From Natronomonas salina (lineage in GTDB: Archaea > Halobacteriota > Halobacteria > Halobacteriales > Haloarculaceae): 64,000 nt of DNA. Positions 8,500 to 27,558 of the stretch are shown piece by piece (within the stretch, counting starts at the first letter, position 1; each line of letters starts with the position of its first letter). The notes below the pieces were generated by a model that saw only the letters and a list, made by a program, of their open reading frames with translations, made no database searches and was not told the origin of the DNA. A program made the position numbers and the translations under genes. The stretch is taken from contig NZ_CP058335.1 of assembly GCF_013391105.1 (NCBI RefSeq), forward strand, positions 806,001 through 870,000, read 5' to 3'.

Positions 8500-11400
8500 A
8501 TGGCAATCGAGGGGGAAAACGACGAGACGGCGGGGCCGCTCGACGCGACGGCGGACCGGCCCGACCCGGCCGACGACGACCGGGCGGGGTACGACTACGC
8601 GGGCGGCGACGTCGACCGGCCGGGGCTCGTCGAGGACCTCGAGCGGGTGGTGGACTGCGAGGTCCGCTTCGACGAGTACACCCGGACGCTGTACGCGACG
8701 GACGCCTCGGCATACGAGGTGACCCCCATCGGCGTCGTCTTCCCGACCGACACCGACGACGTGGCGGCGGTCGTCGAGTACTGCGCGGATCGGTCCATCC
8801 CGGTGTTACCCCGCGGCGGCGGCACGTCGCTGGCCGGCCAGAGCGTCAACGAGGCCGTCGTCCTCGACTTCACGAAGGAGATGGACTCGCTGGTCGACAT
8901 CGACGCCGGAGCGCGGCGGGCGACCGCCCAGCCCGGCATCCGGCTCGGGGACCTGAACGCGGAACTCGAGCCGGAGGACCTGAAGTTCGCGCCGGACCCC
9001 GCCTGGGGAGACAAGAGCGCCCTCGGCGGCGCCGTCGGGAACAACTCGACGGGGAGCCACTCGCTGGTCTACGGCAAGACCGACGCGTACGTCGAGGAAC
9101 TGGAGGTCGTCCTCGCCGACGGAACGGTCCACCGCTTCGGCGAGGTGACCCCGGAGGAGTGGGGGGCGCGAGCCGACGAGGACTCGACGGTCGGCCGGAT
9201 CTACGCCGAACTGCTCCGGATCGCGAAGGAGGAGGCCGACGCCGTCGAGGACGCCTTCCCCGAACTGAAGCGGAACGTCTCGGGGTACAACATCGACCGC
9301 CTGGTCGAGGAGTACCGCGACCTGGAGGCCGGCGACCGCGAGACCGTCAACCTCGCGCGGGTGCTGGTCGGCAGCGAGGGGACCCTCGGCGTCGTCACCG
9401 AGGCGACCGTCTCGCTCGAACCGATCCCGGAGACGAAGGCGATGGCGCTGTTCGCCTACGAGGACCTGCTCTCGGCCCTGGAGGACGTCGAGGCGATGCT
9501 GTCGTTCGGCCCCGCCGCCGTGGAGGTCCTCGACGACGTGCTCCTGGACCTCGCCCGCGACACCTCCGAGTTCGGCAAGCTGGTCGAGGAGACGCTCCCC
9601 GAGGAAACCGGGAGCGTCCTGCTCGTGGAGTTCTACGCCGACTCGGACGACCACGGCCGCGACCAGGTGGCGACGCTGCTGGCCGACCGCCAGCCCGGGA
9701 TGCAGCCGACGGGCGAACCCGACCCCGACCGCTCCGGGACCGACGCGCCGGTGCGAGCCTTCTACGCCGCCGAGGCCCACACCGACGAGGCCCGCGACCG
9801 CTTCTGGAAGCTCCGGAAGTCCGGCCTCCCGATCCTGCTCGGGCGGACGAGCGACGCCAAGCACGTCTCCTTCATCGAGGACACCGCGGTCCCCCCGGAG
9901 CACCTCCCCGAGTACGTCGCGGACTTCCAGGACCTCCTCGACGAGAACGGGACGTTCGCCAGCTTCTACGCCCACGCGGGGCCGGGCTGTCTGCACATCC
10001 GCCCGCTGGTGAACCTGAAGACCACCGAGGGCATCGAGCAGATGCGGAACATCGCCGACGGCGCGACCGACCTCGTCCTGGAGTACGAGGGCAGCGTCTC
10101 CGGCGAGCACGGCGACGGCCGCGCGCGCAGCCAGTGGAACCGGAAACTGTACGGCGACGCGGTGTTCGAGCTGTTCCGCGACCTCAAGCTGGCGTTCGAC
10201 CCCGACGGCCTCCTCAACCCCGAGCAGGTCTGCGGCGACGTCGACATGACCGAGCACCTCCGGTTCGACCCGGACTACGAGTTCGACCCCGGGTTCGAGC
10301 CCGAACTCGACTGGCAGAACGACAACGGCTTCCAGGGGATGGCGGAGCTGTGCCACGGCTGTGGCGGCTGTCGCGGCCCCCAGGAGACCACCGGCGGCGT
10401 GATGTGTCCGACCTACCGCGCCGAGGACGAGGAAATCCTCACCACGCGCGGCCGCGCGAACAGCCTCCGGCGGGCGATGACCGGGGAGCTCGACGCCGAG
10501 GCGACCGACCCCGAGTTCGTCCGGGAGGTCCTGGACCTCTGTGTCGGCTGCAAGGGCTGCTCGAACGACTGCCCCAGCGAGGTCGACCTCGCGAAGCTGA
10601 AGGCCGAACTGGAGTACCAGCACCACCGCGAGCACGGCTCGAGCCTCCGCGACCGGCTGTTCGGCGACGTCGACCGCGCCGCCAAGTGGGGGAGCCGGCT
10701 GGCCCCCGTCTCGAACCGGCTGCCGGAGCTGCCCGGGATGCGCGCGCTGCTGGAGAAGACCCTCGGCATCGCCCGCGAGCGGACGCTCCCGACCTTCCGC
10801 CGGGAGTCCTTCGAGGAGTGGTTCGAGGCGCGCGGCCCACGGGTCGCCGAACGGGCGGCCGAGGAACGGGTCCTCCTGCTGCCGGACACGTTCACCAACT
10901 ACACCGAGCCCGGGGTGGCGAAGGCGGCGGTCCGGGTGCTCGAGGCCGCCGGCGTCCGCGTCGAGGTCCCCCACGTCGGCCCCAGCGGGCGGGCGGCGTT
11001 CTCGAAGGGGTTCCTAGAGGTGGCGGCCGACCGGGCCGAGGACGTCGTCACGGAACTCGAACCCCGCGTCGTCGACGGGTGGGACGTCGTGGTCTGCGAG
11101 CCGTCGGACGCAGTCATGATCCAGTCGGACTACGCCGACCTGCTGTCGGGCGAGGCCGTCGAGACCGTCGCCGGCAACACCTACAGCGTCTGCGAGTACC
11201 TCGACGTCCATCACCTCGACGGCAGCCTCGAGTTCGACGCGGCGGCCGACGACCCGCTGGTCTACCACGGCCACTGCCACCAGAAGGCGACCAAGCGCGA
11301 CCACCACGCGGTCGGCGTGCTCCGGCGGGCCGGCTACGACGTCGAGCCCGTGGACTCGACCTGCTGTGGGATGGCCGGGTCGTTCGGCTACGAGGCCGAG

Positions 11401-11577
11401 CACTACTCGATGAGCCGGGCCATCGGCGAGCTGCTGTTCGAGCAGGTCGACGCCGCCCGCGGGAGCCCCGTCGCGCCCGGCGCCTCCTGCCGGACGCAAC
11501 TCGGCGACCGCGAGGACGCGCCGGCCCCCGACCACCCGATCGAGCGGATCGAGGCCGCGCTCGTGGCCGACGACTGA
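8500..11577 (+). CDS. FAD-linked oxidase fused to 4Fe-4S/CCG domain (D-lactate dehydrogenase type)
   Basis: 1025 residues, a fusion of GlcD/Dld-like and GlpC-like halves. The PCMH FAD domain (about 50-260) contains LPRGGGTSLAGQSVN, and the FAD-oxidase C-terminal domain (about 270-580) contains SGEHGDGRARSQW. Two iron-sulfur motifs follow, CHGCGGC near 617 with a later Cys-Pro, and CVGCKGCSNDCP near 680. The C-terminal CCG domain (about 830-1010) has YHGHCHQKATKRDHH and CCGMAGSFGYE. Proteins of this layout oxidise D-lactate or similar 2-hydroxyacids and pass electrons to the membrane. The substrate is inference. The ATG at 8500 was chosen; an in-frame ATG at 8473 would add nine residues. Confidence 0.9.
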   Translation: MAIEGENDETAGPLDATADRPDPADDDRAGYDYAGGDVDRPGLVEDLERVVDCEVRFDEYTRTLYATDASAYEVTPIGVVFPTDTDDVAAVVEYCADRSIPVLPRGGGTSLAGQSVNEAVVLDFTKEMDSLVDIDAGARRATAQPGIRLGDLNAELEPEDLKFAPDPAWGDKSALGGAVGNNSTGSHSLVYGKTDAYVEELEVVLADGTVHRFGEVTPEEWGARADEDSTVGRIYAELLRIAKEEADAVEDAFPELKRNVSGYNIDRLVEEYRDLEAGDRETVNLARVLVGSEGTLGVVTEATVSLEPIPETKAMALFAYEDLLSALEDVEAMLSFGPAAVEVLDDVLLDLARDTSEFGKLVEETLPEETGSVLLVEFYADSDDHGRDQVATLLADRQPGMQPTGEPDPDRSGTDAPVRAFYAAEAHTDEARDRFWKLRKSGLPILLGRTSDAKHVSFIEDTAVPPEHLPEYVADFQDLLDENGTFASFYAHAGPGCLHIRPLVNLKTTEGIEQMRNIADGATDLVLEYEGSVSGEHGDGRARSQWNRKLYGDAVFELFRDLKLAFDPDGLLNPEQVCGDVDMTEHLRFDPDYEFDPGFEPELDWQNDNGFQGMAELCHGCGGCRGPQETTGGVMCPTYRAEDEEILTTRGRANSLRRAMTGELDAEATDPEFVREVLDLCVGCKGCSNDCPSEVDLAKLKAELEYQHHREHGSSLRDRLFGDVDRAAKWGSRLAPVSNRLPELPGMRALLEKTLGIARERTLPTFRRESFEEWFEARGPRVAERAAEERVLLLPDTFTNYTEPGVAKAAVRVLEAAGVRVEVPHVGPSGRAAFSKGFLEVAADRAEDVVTELEPRVVDGWDVVVCEPSDAVMIQSDYADLLSGEAVETVAGNTYSVCEYLDVHHLDGSLEFDAAADDPLVYHGHCHQKATKRDHHAVGVLRRAGYDVEPVDSTCCGMAGSFGYEAEHYSMSRAIGELLFEQVDAARGSPVAPGASCRTQLGDREDAPAPDHPIERIEAALVADD

Positions 11578-11630
11578 GCGACGGCCGGCCACTTCGCCGT
11601 CGGTCACAATCTGACCCGAGACATAGGGGT

Positions 11631-11638
11631 TTTATAAT
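11631..11638 (+). promoter_or_regulatory. TATA element of the membrane-bound HTH gene
   Basis: TTTATAAT centred 28 bases before the ATG at 11663. The spacing favours that ATG over the in-frame GTG at 11648, which would lie upstream of the expected transcription start. Confidence 0.6.
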
Positions 11639-11662
11639 TCGGCGAGTGTGGATTCGATACTG

Positions 11663-12853
11663 ATGAGACGGTCGTCCCGGGCGTGGATCGCGCCAGTCGT
11701 CGCGAGCCTGCTCGTCTGTACGCTTCTCGCGCCCGCGCTGGCCGCCGCCCCGGTCGCGGCCCAGGACGACGCGAGCGCCGGCCTCGCCGTGACGACCCAG
11801 GAGTTCGAGGCCGACCGCGTCGACTTCGAGATCACCGTCTACGAGAACGGCTCCGCGACGTGGACGTTCCGCTACATCCAGGGCCTCGAGACCGACGAGG
11901 ACCGCCAGAACTTCGAGGCCTACGCGGAGGACTTCGAGAACAACGAGACGGAACTCTACACCACGTTCCGGAACGGCGCCGAGCGGCTGACCACCAACGG
12001 CTCGGAGGTGACGGGCCGCGAGATGAGCGCCGAGAACTTCCAGCGGAGCGCCAGGACGGAGGGACTCGACCCCTCGCAGTCGACCCGCGGCGTCGTCGAG
12101 ATGTCGTTCCGCTGGGACGGGTTCGCGCGCGTCGACGACGAGGGCGACAACGTCGTGATGGGCGACGTCTTCGAGGGCGGCCTGTTCATCTCGTCGGACC
12201 AGCAGCTGATCGTCCAGGCCGGGCCGAACCTCGCCTTCGGCGACGTCCAGCCCGACGACGGCGAGTTCGACGAGGGGACGATGGCGGAGAGCGACACCGT
12301 GACCTGGGGCGGCGAGAAGTCGTTCAACCCCAGCCGCCCACGCGTGGAGTTCGTCGACCCGAACGCGGTGTCCACCGACGACACCGCGCCCGCCGCGGGC
12401 GGCTTCGGGTGGCTGCTCCCCGCCGCCGGGCTCGTCCTCGTCCTCCTGCTCGGCGTCGGCGCGGCCGTCGCCTACCGCTCGGAGGCGTTCCCCTACGTCG
12501 GCGACGGTTCGGACGTCCGCTCGAACGCGGGAGACGGCGGCGCCAGCGCCGCGACCGGCGGTGGCGAGGCCGCAGCCGGGGCGGCGGCGGGCGCCGGCGG
12601 CGTCCCCGACGAGGAACTCATCTCCGACGAGGAGCGCGTCGTCACGCTCCTCGAGGAGAACGGCGGCCGGATGAAACAGGTCAACATCGTCGACGAGACC
12701 GGCTGGTCGAAGTCGAAGGTGTCGATGCTGCTGTCGGATATGGAGGACGAGGGCACCATCTCGAAGCTTCGCGTCGGCCGCGAGAACATCGTCTCGCTGG
12801 CCGGCCACGAGCCCGACGCCGCCGGGTCGCCGTTCGAGGACGACGGCCGGTGA
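11663..12853 (+). CDS. Membrane-anchored winged-helix protein with exported sensor domain
   Basis: 396 residues. A Sec-type signal (MRRSSRAWIAPVVASLLVCT, cleavage near AAPVAAQ) leads an exported domain of about 200 residues with several Asn-X-Ser/Thr sites. A transmembrane helix (GWLLPAAGLVLVLLLGVGAA, about 248-270) follows, then a Gly/Ala-rich linker and a C-terminal winged helix (about 312-385: ERVVTLLEENGGRMKQVNIV and SKSKVSMLLSDMEDEGTISK). The topology places a DNA-binding domain on the inside and a sensing domain outside. This is a known haloarchaeal arrangement of unknown ligand. The start was fixed by the TATA element at 11631-11638. Confidence 0.82.
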   Translation: MRRSSRAWIAPVVASLLVCTLLAPALAAAPVAAQDDASAGLAVTTQEFEADRVDFEITVYENGSATWTFRYIQGLETDEDRQNFEAYAEDFENNETELYTTFRNGAERLTTNGSEVTGREMSAENFQRSARTEGLDPSQSTRGVVEMSFRWDGFARVDDEGDNVVMGDVFEGGLFISSDQQLIVQAGPNLAFGDVQPDDGEFDEGTMAESDTVTWGGEKSFNPSRPRVEFVDPNAVSTDDTAPAAGGFGWLLPAAGLVLVLLLGVGAAVAYRSEAFPYVGDGSDVRSNAGDGGASAATGGGEAAAGAAAGAGGVPDEELISDEERVVTLLEENGGRMKQVNIVDETGWSKSKVSMLLSDMEDEGTISKLRVGRENIVSLAGHEPDAAGSPFEDDGR

Positions 12854-12871
12854 CGAACCGGTCCGGTCGAG

Positions 12872-13225
12872 TTACCGGACCTGGCCGGCGGCCTCGGGGG
12901 CGTGGGCCTCCAGGAAGTCGACGACCGCCTGGGCGCCCTGGAACCCCTCCGCTTTCCTCGCGATCTCCTCGCCGTCGCGGAACAGGACGAGCGTCGGTAC
13001 CGAACGGACGTCGAACCGCTCTACGAGCGTGATGTCGTCCCCGGGGTTCACCAGGCCGACGGCCACGTCGGTGGCCCGCGCGACGTTCCCCAGGACGGGC
13101 TCCATCGCCTGACACATCGAACAGCCCTTCGTGTAGAACTCCACGAGCGCCACGTCGTGGTCGGCGACGAACCCGTCGACTGCGGCGCCGTCCTCGAGCC
13201 GTTCCGGTCTGACGTCTGGGTCCAT
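12872..13225 (-). CDS. Thioredoxin family protein
   Basis: 117 residues forming one thioredoxin fold. The active site is YTKGCSMCQAMEPV, a Cys-Ser-Met-Cys motif at about residues 35-38 instead of the usual CGPC, followed by the cis-proline segment VRSVPTLVLFRDGEE. It probably acts as a cytosolic disulfide oxidoreductase. The CSMC motif would alter the redox potential compared with classical thioredoxin; that is inference. It ends 18 bases from the winged-helix gene, converging with it. Confidence 0.9.
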   Translation of the reverse strand: MDPDVRPERLEDGAAVDGFVADHDVALVEFYTKGCSMCQAMEPVLGNVARATDVAVGLVNPGDDITLVERFDVRSVPTLVLFRDGEEIARKAEGFQGAQAVVDFLEAHAPEAAGQVR

Positions 13226-13297
13226 ACGGGCGGTACGCCGCTCACCGGGAAACCGCTGACGGCGGCGGAGAGCGAGGGTGAGAACAGCGTGACTTGG

Positions 13298-16200
13298 TCA
13301 GCGCGCCGACCGCCGCGCCGCGAACAGCCCGGCCAGCACCGCGAGGAGCGCGGCGACGACGCCGAAGCCGGCGCCGTCGTCCTCGGTCGGCGACGCGGTT
13401 CCCGAGACGGTCGAGGTATCAGTCGGTGCCTGCGTCCCCGTGGCTGTCGGGGTGGGCGACGGCGTGTCGTCCGGCACCGACCGCGACTCGGCGGGCGTCG
13501 ACCGCGCTTCGTTCTCGACGAGCGCGAACCGCGAGAAGCCGGGGGTCTCGGCCGTGACGAGCACCCGCCCGTCGTCAGCGGTCGTGACGGTCGTCTCCAG
13601 GGGCTGCCACTCTCCGTCCGCGTACCGGTACATCGTCACCCCGCCGTCGCCGACGGTCGCGGGATCGACGGTCGATCGGACCGTCGCCGGCCGGTCGGCC
13701 AGGGCCGCGGGGACCTCGATCGAGAGCTGTACGACCGATCTCCCCGGCGTGGCCGGCAGGTCGTCGACGACGCCCTCGCTCACGGTCACCCTCCCGGCCG
13801 CGTCGTCGTCCTGGAACGTGATCTCTGAGACGGACGTGTTCCGCACCGGGACGCTGACGCCGGCGCGGTCGGGGTCCGAGTCGACGATGTCCGCCGACTC
13901 CGCGAGACCGGCCGGGGTCGCGTCCGACTCGTTCACTCCGTCGTCGATCGGCTCTTCCGGCGTCGTTTCCTCTTCTGCAGGCGGCGCCGGAGGAGCGGGC
14001 GGGGCAGGAGCAGCACCGCCGCCTCCGCCGCTACTCCCGCCACCACTGCTTCCCCCGCCGCCGGTCGAACCCCCCGAATCGGCGTCCTCTCCGTCCTCCG
14101 CTGCCGCGATATCGACCGTCGCGGCGGTGCTCGCGTCGGGCGACCGCACGACGACCTCGAGAGGCCCGCTCGCGTCCGCGGCGTGTGCGAAGACGACCGT
14201 CCCGTTGGCGCCGGCGTCCAGCCGAACCGTCCGCTGGTCGATCGTCCGGCCGTCGACGACGAGTTCGACCGTCCGCTCGCCCGCGGAGTTCCCCAGGTTC
14301 TCGACCGTCGCGGTGACCTCGAAGGAGTCGCCGACCGCCGCGCTCGGGGGGACCCCGAGGCCGCCGACGGCGAAGAACCGGGCGGACTGCTCGAGGTCGA
14401 GATCGACCGCCGTAGCCTCGCCGTCTGCGACGGCGACGTCAGTCTCTCGGACCGCATCGTAGCCGTCCGCGGTGGCCCCGACCGAGTAGTCACCGACCGG
14501 GAGTCGCAGTCCGTAGGTCCCGTCGGCGTCGGTCGTCGTGGTGAACGGTTCGCCCGTCTCCCGGTCGGTCGCGGTCACGGTCACGCCGGCCAACGGTTCG
14601 TCTGTGGTTGCGTCCGCGACGCTGCCTTCGAGGGTCCCGTTGATTCGGGAGACGTCGATCGAGGCCCGCGCGTCGGCGTCCTCGCTGAACACGCCGATCT
14701 CGAGCACGCCGGTGTCGGCGTCCCTGGGGACGTCGGCGGAGAAGGAGACCACCGTAGCGTTCCCGGCTGCCAGCGTTCGGTTCGTGCTCGCCAGGACGGC
14801 GTAGTCGCCGACGGCCGCGTCGCCGTCGAGGTCGGCCCCGAGGCGTAGTTCGAGCCGCTGCTCCTCCGACAGGTCACCGGTGTTCGCGACCGTCGCGGAC
14901 ACGAGGAGCGGGTCGGCCCGCTCGACCGCGCTGGGTGCATCGAGCCCCGAGACGTCGAACCGGGCCGGCTCGTCCACCCGGACGTCGGTCACGTACGAAT
15001 CGTCCGCCGTCCCGACCCCGTGTGAGACGACGCCGCCGGAGCGGGTCTCGTCGACGGCGTGGGCGAACGCGACCTGCCGGGTTTCGCCCTCTTCGAGCGT
15101 CACGGTCCTCGAGGCCACGACGTCGCCGTCGAACGTCAGGTCGACGTCCTGCGTCGCGATTTTGACGCCGCGGTTGGCGACCGTTGCTTCGACCGTCAGC
15201 TCCTGGCCGGCGACGACGTCAGTCTGGGTCCGGACGTCCTCGAGGACGAACTCCGCCGGGTGCTGTTCGCCCATTGGCGCGACCGTCCCGAAGGGGTCGA
15301 GCGTCCCCGCGATGCGGCCGGTCGCGGCGTCGACGCTCGAACCGTCTACAGGCGACCACTCCCCGCTGGACTCGTCGTAGCGCCACAGCCCCAGCGTCTC
15401 GTTCTGGAGTCGCGTCCCGTCCCCGGCCGCGTAGTCGACCGAGAGGGACGCGGCCGCGTCGCTCCCGAGGGGCTCGGCCGCCACGGCCGGGCCGATTCGC
15501 TCGTGGTGTTCCGGGGCCGGCGCGGGGGCGGCCGTCGGCGAGAGGGCGACGTCCGTCGCGTCGACGTCCAGGCGGCGTCCGTCCCCGAGGCTGACGTTCC
15601 GGGCGTGCGCGTCACCGCGGAACTCGTAGGCGAGGGTGGCGTTCGAGACCGACGTGTCGGCGACCGTGGTGCCGTCGACGGTCCCGAGGCCGACGCCCGC
15701 GCCGCTGGCGTCGAGGTCGATCCCGCGGAGGTCCACGCCGGGGGCCAGGACGTCGATGCCGACGACGGAGGTCTCGGCGCCGTCGAAGTCGGCGACCGCG
15801 AGTTCCAGGGGCGCCTCGCCGGCCGAACGGAGCGTGACCGGCCGCGGTATCGAGAGACCGCTGGCGGTCGAGTCCGTCCCGTCGACCGGCAGGACGTACG
15901 GCCCCGACGACGCCCCGTCGACCGCGACGGTCGTGTTCGGCGCGGCGACGTCGAGGGCGGACTGGAGGTCGTCCGGGTCGTAGTGAGTCGGAATCTCCAT
16001 CGGATCGTGGTGGACGTACGTCGGAGGGGTCGAACGGGTGAGCGAATCGGTGCCGTCCTCGAAGGTGTACGCCAGTTCGAGTGCGGCGACCGTCTCCGCG
16101 GTCGTCTCGACCTCGACCGTGAGCGGCGTGTTGATCTGCGGTTCGGTGAAGTTCAGCCGCTCGCCGAAGGCGACCGTCTCCCCCTCGATCCGGAGCGTCA

Positions 16201-25647: not shown

Positions 25648-25956
25648 ATGAGCGACAACAGAGACCGGGGGATCGAGTTCGGCGACCTGACCGACGACCT
25701 GGAGTCCGAGAGCTACCCCCTGTCGAAGGCCGAGATCCTCGAGGAGTACGGCGACCGGGAACTGGAGCACTCCAGCGGCAGCGTCAGGCTGGCGGAACTC
25801 CTCGAGGATCTGGGCGACCGACAGTTCGAGAACGCCGACGAGGTCCACGAGACGATGCTGAACATGGTCGGCGTCGAGGCCGTCGGCCGCCAGGGCTACA
25901 GCGACCGCGGCGCCGGGACCGCCGAGCAGAACGGCGACGAGGACGAGTCCTTCTAA
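25648..25956 (+). CDS. DUF5789-like small acidic protein
   Basis: 102 residues starting MSDNRDRGIEFGDLTDDLES. Acidic and soluble, with a repeated pattern: ILEEYGDRELEHSSGSVRLA and LLEDLGDRQFENADEVHETM share the (L)GDR(E/Q)(L/F)E unit. It resembles the haloarchaeal DUF5789 family, small proteins of unknown function. The ATG at 25648 is preferred because the upstream in-frame codons are basic. Confidence 0.8.
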   Translation: MSDNRDRGIEFGDLTDDLESESYPLSKAEILEEYGDRELEHSSGSVRLAELLEDLGDRQFENADEVHETMLNMVGVEAVGRQGYSDRGAGTAEQNGDEDESF

Positions 25957-26082
25957 CCGGTACCGCCGCTCGTCGGATACTGCGTCGTCTCGACTCGGCC
26001 GTACTGAAAGTTCCGACCACGACGACCGCGTCGGACTTCCTCCAGGAAAGAAGTGCTCCCGACGTTCGCGCAGTCGCGCCGA

Positions 26083-26984
26083 TTACTGGGTCTCCTGGGT
26101 GGACGGCTCTGTCTCGTCCGTCGGTTCTTCTGGCATCTCACCGCTCGTCTCGTCCGATGGAACACTCTCGGAGCGCCCCTCGCTTGGCTGCTGCTCCGGG
26201 CCAGATTCGTCACCGAAGTCCTGCGACCGTCCGGTCTGCCGTTGCTGCTGGCTCTCCTGTGGCTGCTGCTGACCCTGCTGGGACGCATACTGCGGTATCT
26301 GTGATTGCCGCGAGTATTGCTGGCCCTGCGGCTGCTGGTACTGTTGCTGCTGGGGCTGTTGATACTGCTGGCCCTGTGGCTGCTGGTACCGTTGCTGCTG
26401 GGGCTGCTGGTGTTGCTGACCCTGCGGCTGCTGGAACTGCTGGGACTGCGGCTGGCGTTGCTGCGACTGATCGTGCTGCTGAGACTGCTGTGTCTGTTGT
26501 CGATGCTGTTGCGGCTGTTGCTGGTACTGTTGAGACTGAGGCTGTTGATACTGCTGGGACTGCGAACTCTGCGGCTGCTGGTGTTGCTGGCCCTGTGGCT
26601 GCTGGTACTGCTGCCCTCGTGATTGCTGGTACTGTTGCTGCTGGGGCTGCTGGAACGCCTGCTGGGCCTGCTGCTGTGTCTCTCCCGCTGGAGCTCGAAT
26701 CCCTGGTGGATCCCCTGTTCGGCCATCTGTTCGGTGCTCCGGACCGCGTCGTCGACGGTGTCGATGTAATTCTGGAGGAAGTCCCGCGTCATGTCGATCC
26801 CCTGGTTCTGGGCCTGATAGCCCATCTCCAGGCCGTTCATGAACGACTCCGCGACGCTCTTCTGGATCTGGAGGGACTGCTCCAGGGGCGCCTTGATAGC
26901 CTGCTGGAGTGCCTGCTGACTGTCCTGGGTCGGTTGCTGTTGATTCGTCTGCTGTTGATTCGGGTTCTGCTGATTCGGGTTCAT
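26083..26984 (-). CDS. Gln-rich protein with amphipathic N-terminal helix domain, reading frame broken
   Basis: The N-terminal part is one frame from the ATG at 26984 (MNPNQQNPNQQQTNQQQPTQ, then helical LEQSLQIQKSVAESFMNGLE and DFLQNYIDTVDDAVRSTEQM), ending about residue 101 in GFELQRE. The remaining 198 codons are in another frame, from TQQQAQQAFQQPQQQQYQQ to an acidic end at 26083. The switch falls in GGGAGAGACA at about 26677-26686 on the minus strand. Removing one GA restores a continuous protein of about 300 residues. Left unshifted, the first frame stays open to 25953 but becomes a basic Ser/Arg-rich tail unlike any haloarchaeal protein. The N-terminal domain vaguely resembles phasin-like helices. 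Could be a mutation, an assembly error or programmed slippage. Confidence 0.7.
26270..26680 (-). repeat. CAG-dominated coding repeats (Gln-rich)
   Basis: Units translating as QQPQGQQYQQPQQQQYQQ recur many times with small variations. The tract lacks stop codons in two frames because CAG shifted by one reads AGC, which explains why the frame before the shift stays open. Confidence 0.75.
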
Positions 26985-27216
26985 GGTTGGTCACCTGCTG
27001 GCTGGCGCCGGCGACTCCGTTCGACTGGTCGCGCCGCTGTTCGGTCGGAGACGCCGGTCCCCCGCCAACGTGTGCACCGACGCGGAATCCGTAGATAAAC
27101 CGACGATACCGTTCAGCAGAGTAAGATGAGGCCGTTCGGCTAGTAAGTTCTTACACCGAGAACCGACGAATCGAACCCCTCAGACCCCTTCCAGAGCATG
27201 TGTGATACTGACACGC

Positions 27217-27558
27217 CTACGCAGGCTGGGTGTTCGCGGGCGGCGTGATCGCGATCTGGCCGTTGTGGTAGACCGTGACCTGGTGGTCCCAGATGGTGAA
27301 GCTGACGTGGCCGTTGGGCCGCTGGGTGCCGTCCGGTGCCGGTTCGAACAGCCGGTCGAGCGACGCGGGGTCGACGTAGTTGCACAGGCTACTCTCGGCC
27401 TGGGTGACGTCCGCGCCCGTGACGTCGGAGAGCGCGTGGACGAGCGTCGTCGTCAGGTCGCTGGGACCGCCGAAGTCGTGCTGGACGAAGTACGGCTGCG
27501 GGGGCTGCGGCTGGTTCTGAGGGGCGGCGGGGGCGGTGTTCTGTCGGTTGCCGTGCAT
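27217..27558 (-). CDS. HalOD1 output-domain protein
   Basis: 113 residues. After a short Gln/Pro-rich lead (MHGNRQNTAPAAPQNQPQPP) comes one HalOD1 domain: DLTTTLVHALSDVTGADVTQ, YVDPASLDRLFEPAPDGTQR and HVSFTIWDHQVTVYHNGQIA. HalOD1 is a haloarchaeal signalling output domain often found alone or behind PAS/receiver modules; its biochemical role is unknown. It lies about 230 bases upstream of the frameshifted Q-rich gene on the same strand, and both share the N-terminal N/Q/P composition. Confidence 0.82.
   Translation of the reverse strand: MHGNRQNTAPAAPQNQPQPPQPYFVQHDFGGPSDLTTTLVHALSDVTGADVTQAESSLCNYVDPASLDRLFEPAPDGTQRPNGHVSFTIWDHQVTVYHNGQIAITPPANTQPA

Follow-up and report, generated by a model that had tools for sequence, protein, structure and literature searches.

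A young, lineage-specific indel probably breaks the reading frame of a glutamine-rich, phasin-like gene in Natronomonas salina

Is a gene that changes reading frame partway along its length recoded by the ribosome, toggled by phase variation, or simply broken? The question is raised by a minus-strand gene (26984-26083) in the window, the 64,000-nucleotide stretch of Natronomonas salina DNA analyzed here, in which about 101 codons lie in one frame and the next 199 in the +2 (equivalent to -1) frame. Codon models and homologs confirmed both the coordinates and the two-frame reading given in the initial annotation, which had proposed phase variation, a recent mutation or ribosomal slippage as the cause. 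We consider it very likely (probability roughly 0.88) that the gene carries a private, small frame-breaking indel, young and lineage-specific, whether natural or artefactual, and that the switch is not programmed.

The N-terminal part (26682-26984, minus strand) consists of 101 codons in frame 0, starts with an ATG at 26984 and encodes an acidic segment (pI 4.3). An AGGTGA located 6 nt before this ATG (26991-26996, minus strand) is a good Shine-Dalgarno match. Frame 0 runs for 343 codons in all and ends at 25953; its continuation past the N-terminal domain (25953-26681, minus strand) is a basic, Ser/Arg-rich tail of 242 amino acids with a computed pI of 12.0 that, by homolog comparison and codon models, was apparently never under selection as a protein. 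The same comparison and models place a Gln/Pro-rich tail with an acidic end in the +2 frame (26083-26682, minus strand), with 199 codons, 93 of them for Gln, plus a stop at 26083 (pI 4.64). This tail is presumably disordered and contains degenerate 24-bp (8-codon) repeats at 26314-26454 (minus strand), as well as a second 24-bp repeat array at 26569-26653 (minus strand).

The N-terminus is predicted to form a helical domain distantly related to haloarchaeal phasins (PhaP), as suggested by homologs, a profile match and a helix model. Its profile aligned to a haloarchaeal PhaP-like alignment with an hhalign probability of 98.9% (E 3.6e-17, 82 columns, 21% identity), and a low-confidence structure model (mean pLDDT 61.9) showed two long helices. 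One member of this reference alignment (L023) sits directly before a PhaE gene (PF09712, E 5e-14), and the published haloarchaeal order is phaP-phaE, within a maoC-phaR-phaP-phaE-phaC cluster (PMC7137286). None of the Pfam and NCBIfam phasin models matched the window protein, family scans of the split protein gave only sub-threshold matches, and a PDB sequence search with it returned nothing convincing. Set against haloarchaeal PhaP, with which the helical domain is shared by profile alignment, the window gene differs in that its first helical region carries a conserved Pro (P33) and that the Gln/Pro-rich tail follows after only about 100 residues; it adjoins HalOD1, whereas haloarchaeal PhaP sits in the pha cluster. 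The gene lies at 0.83 Mb, outside the phaR-phaP-phaE-phaC cluster, and the genome's own PhaC, of class III and above the cut-off, is found in locus L060 (C1, ~2.361 Mb). Four other phasin-like genes are present in the same genome. The phasin-like genes of this genome are located away from the PhaE-like/PhaC locus L060, where PhaC is followed by PhaE-like and AbrB-like ORFs (10938-14307; the latter two named by eye, from sequence), and no PhaP-like ORF was seen by eye between the AbrB-like and PhaE-like genes.

The family to which this gene belongs is small and patchily distributed. With the 101 N-terminal residues as a query, 20 of the 146 family genomes matched at E<=1e-9, as did 13 of the 392 order genomes (both counts include the genome itself, and the two sets overlap). 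None of the 19 congeners matched at this threshold; at E<=0.001, 7/20 genus genomes did so, again including this one. The best relatives of the N-terminus are 53% identical across 78 residues. A profile search with alignment A2 found 4 loci in the genome contigs collection and no loci in the viral contigs. For tail comparisons, we retained 19 tailed homologs from the same order, 18 from the family search and one (L002) from the order search. A tailless phasin-like protein (L003) was excluded from the tail counts, as were L038, L039 and L041, apparent (near) copies of L029, L031 and L037 when compared by eye; L040, L082 and L083 were likewise left out of the 19.

The upstream neighbor of the window gene is a HalOD1 gene (27217-27558, minus strand; PF18545, E 1.7e-19), which ends 236 bases before the ATG of the split gene. 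This arrangement is conserved: a HalOD1 frame lies upstream on the same strand, ending 275-439 bases before the matched stretch, in 14/19 tailed homologs (the others being L072, L037, L073, L005 and L002), which argues that the window gene is a genuine ortholog. The pair formed by HalOD1 and a phasin-like Gln/Pro-rich gene was observed at loci L028-L036, L068-L071 and L004, and is plasmid-borne in Haloarcula marina and Halorientalis. The Gln-rich hypothetical proteins of these two plasmids (NZ_CP100408.1 and NZ_CP019069.1) have the domain order and HalOD1 neighbor of the window gene but, unlike it, are encoded in a single reading frame. Downstream lies a convergent DUF5789 gene (25648-25956, plus strand; PF19102, E 4.1e-18), with a matching convergent gene in Halorientalis sp. 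IM1011; within the flanks examined, DUF5789 is near few other homologs. HalOD1 proteins are common stand-alone domains of haloarchaea (PMC5847659), and Haloferax volcanii needs one of them, DdfA, to form disk cells (PMC10869688). The window HalOD1 scored 44.4 bits against the DdfA model, under its cut-off of 70, and we therefore claim no shape role for it.

Locating the switch required a model trained on homologs, as genome-average codon usage is blind to it: both tail frames tie at -81.1 and the switch is not localized. A gene-finder HMM did not call the switch and scored the stretch as non-coding. We trained codon frequencies for the N-terminus and the tail on the 19 intact homologs and searched for a change-point between frames. 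The two-frame model reached 287.9 nats; staying in frame 0 from end to end gave -69.6 (358 nats worse), and staying in the +2 frame gave 128.7. By region, frame 0 scored +68 nats over the N-terminal part; over the tail, the +2 frame scored +220 and frame 0 -138. With 95% probability the switch falls within 26679-26690 (minus strand), an interval that contains GGGAGAGA and takes in GAGAGA at 26679-26684 as well as the preceding GGG; a training set that included L040, with its mis-extended start, gave the same 95% set. The break could therefore stem either from two bases gained in the GA run or from one base lost in the G run. The initial annotation put the switch on GAGAGA, and it does lie at or next to this run; the two-base size of the slip proposed for it is not required, as loss of one base, for example from the G run, is equivalent.

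Leave-one-out codon models scored the whole tail best in the N-terminal frame in 19/19 tailed homologs, although in L069 a single last sub-window favored another frame; the +2 frame scored best only in the window copy, the single split one. We observe this switch at a defined place and find it absent from relatives, the split in the window being read from a single sequence of the species. The 19 homologs bear out the earlier view that the protein naturally continues in the Gln-rich frame with its acidic end; the last 30 residues are net acidic in 18 of the 19, and neutral in L002. Repeat copies within the tail tell the same story: most of their differences fall at third codon positions in the +2 frame, which indicates that the tail evolved in this frame, as a Gln-rich protein. 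In the 26314-26454 array, 20/35 mismatches between copies fall at +2-frame position 3, and the changed codons are 14 synonymous and 9 non-synonymous in the +2 frame versus 0 and 27 in frame 0; the second array gave 6 and 6 versus 0 and 10. Tails of relatives often vary in length but keep the frame: across the seven pairs compared, 41 of 45 gaps have lengths divisible by three, and the remaining four occur in two of these pairs (8 and 259; 14 and 4), where they sum to a multiple of three within each pair. That the Ser/Arg frame stays open is a by-product of CAG-rich coding, which yields AGC (Ser) or GCA (Ala) when read out of frame, and few stops. This openness says little, as the alternative frames of intact homologs are likewise long: 23/28 are open for at least 100 codons past codon 100 (14 intact homologs; the start of L040 is mis-set).

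Could the split nevertheless be functional? A programmed +2 frameshift would have the P-site tRNA-Glu slip from GAG to GAG while a rare AGA waits in the A site, so that the whole Gln-rich phasin-like protein is made. Re-pairing at GAG is perfect at exactly 26684, GAG being the only codon within the switch interval that re-pairs at +2, and AGA is rare (107/80,883 codons, 1.8% of Arg codons). If it were true, a +2 hop in a chromosomal haloarchaeal gene would give both Ser/Arg-tailed and Gln-rich phasin-like forms, with a HalOD1 regulator as partner. However, the split is not conserved (0/19 homologs are split, and none needs recoding), no X-XXY-YYZ heptamer was present at the 20 codon positions checked, and the flanking RNA folds no better than its shuffles (z 0.80, -0.80 and 0.30). 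The archaeal cases described in PMC8211752 are -1 events, plus +1 in one halovirus, with no +2 event seen among them. Ribosomal slippage is thus unsupported, and we regard it as the least probable of the explanations. Phase variation, in which slippage in the GA run would turn the Gln-rich tail on and off, is scarcely more credible. A dinucleotide run does lie inside the 95% set of the switch, but the tract has three GA units only, short for such a tract, and the window holds fewer GAGAGA copies than expected (18 versus 61 +/- 9 in shuffles). In addition, the alternative frame runs for 242 codons without truncation, and the "off" state was found in 0/19 homologs, so that this part of the initial annotation finds no support either.

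As the gene is whole in relatives, the break most likely arose through a commonplace recent mutation or an error in sequencing. The pattern is that of a pseudogene formed by an indel, the orthologs being intact and the break confined to a single genome, and the +2 frame is free of stops across 199 codons, which points to a young event. A recent mutation is the best supported of the causes suggested at the outset, and we lean slightly toward a natural young mutation, as a matter of judgement rather than computation. The share of the overall probability that falls to a sequencing or assembly error, likewise a judgement, makes this a possible though doubtful source: the gene would then be whole in the organism, with bases gained or lost in GC- and CAG-rich repeats. 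All 19 tailed homologs are whole and the tail shows no decay, as such an error would have it, and a 2013 GeneTack survey expected most singleton frameshifts validated by homology to reflect sequencing errors (PMC3711429). Like the singleton fs-genes described there, the window gene is broken in one genome with whole relatives; it differs in having no pseudogene annotation and in being known here from deposited sequence. Against an error, the assembly is one contig with 99.84% completeness, only short runs occur at the switch site, and a coding HMM flagged just 4 switches over 464 kb elsewhere in the genome, most of them weak candidates. In the 324 kb of the 14/21 sequences best modeled by this HMM, it found 2 switches, and it detected 60/70 simulated single-base deletions. 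The age of a very young break with no visible decay is read from the absence of damage only, and an intact tail would be equally expected if the tail were still decoded.

The mostly weak candidate switches elsewhere lie at L064 14431, L051 9019, L066 7875 and L056 5636 (coding HMM). Three sequences, L054, L056 and L059 (C1, ~1.28, 1.64 and 2.18 Mb), are recognized as coding by the codon model over only 3-30% of their length, and are perhaps islands of unusual composition.

If the indel is natural, the ancestral gene would have encoded a PhaP-like helical domain plus a Gln/Pro-rich tail, just downstream of HalOD1, and one small indel near 26679-26690 (+2 or -1 bases, modulo three) would have put the tail out of frame in one genome. 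The ribosome would then continue into the 242-residue basic Ser/Arg tail, and such read-through would leave an altered, probably non-functional product. This loss may be tolerated, perhaps because four other phasin-like genes are present. The frame break itself is most likely ordinary biology. Its useful by-product is the conserved pair of HalOD1 and a Gln/Pro-tailed phasin-like protein, found in several Haloarculaceae genera and sometimes plasmid-borne. Our literature search found no paper on glutamine-rich haloarchaeal proteins or glutamine-rich archaeal phasins. With its low-complexity tail on a granule-coat-like domain, this protein is a candidate for binding granules or forming condensates under high-salt conditions.
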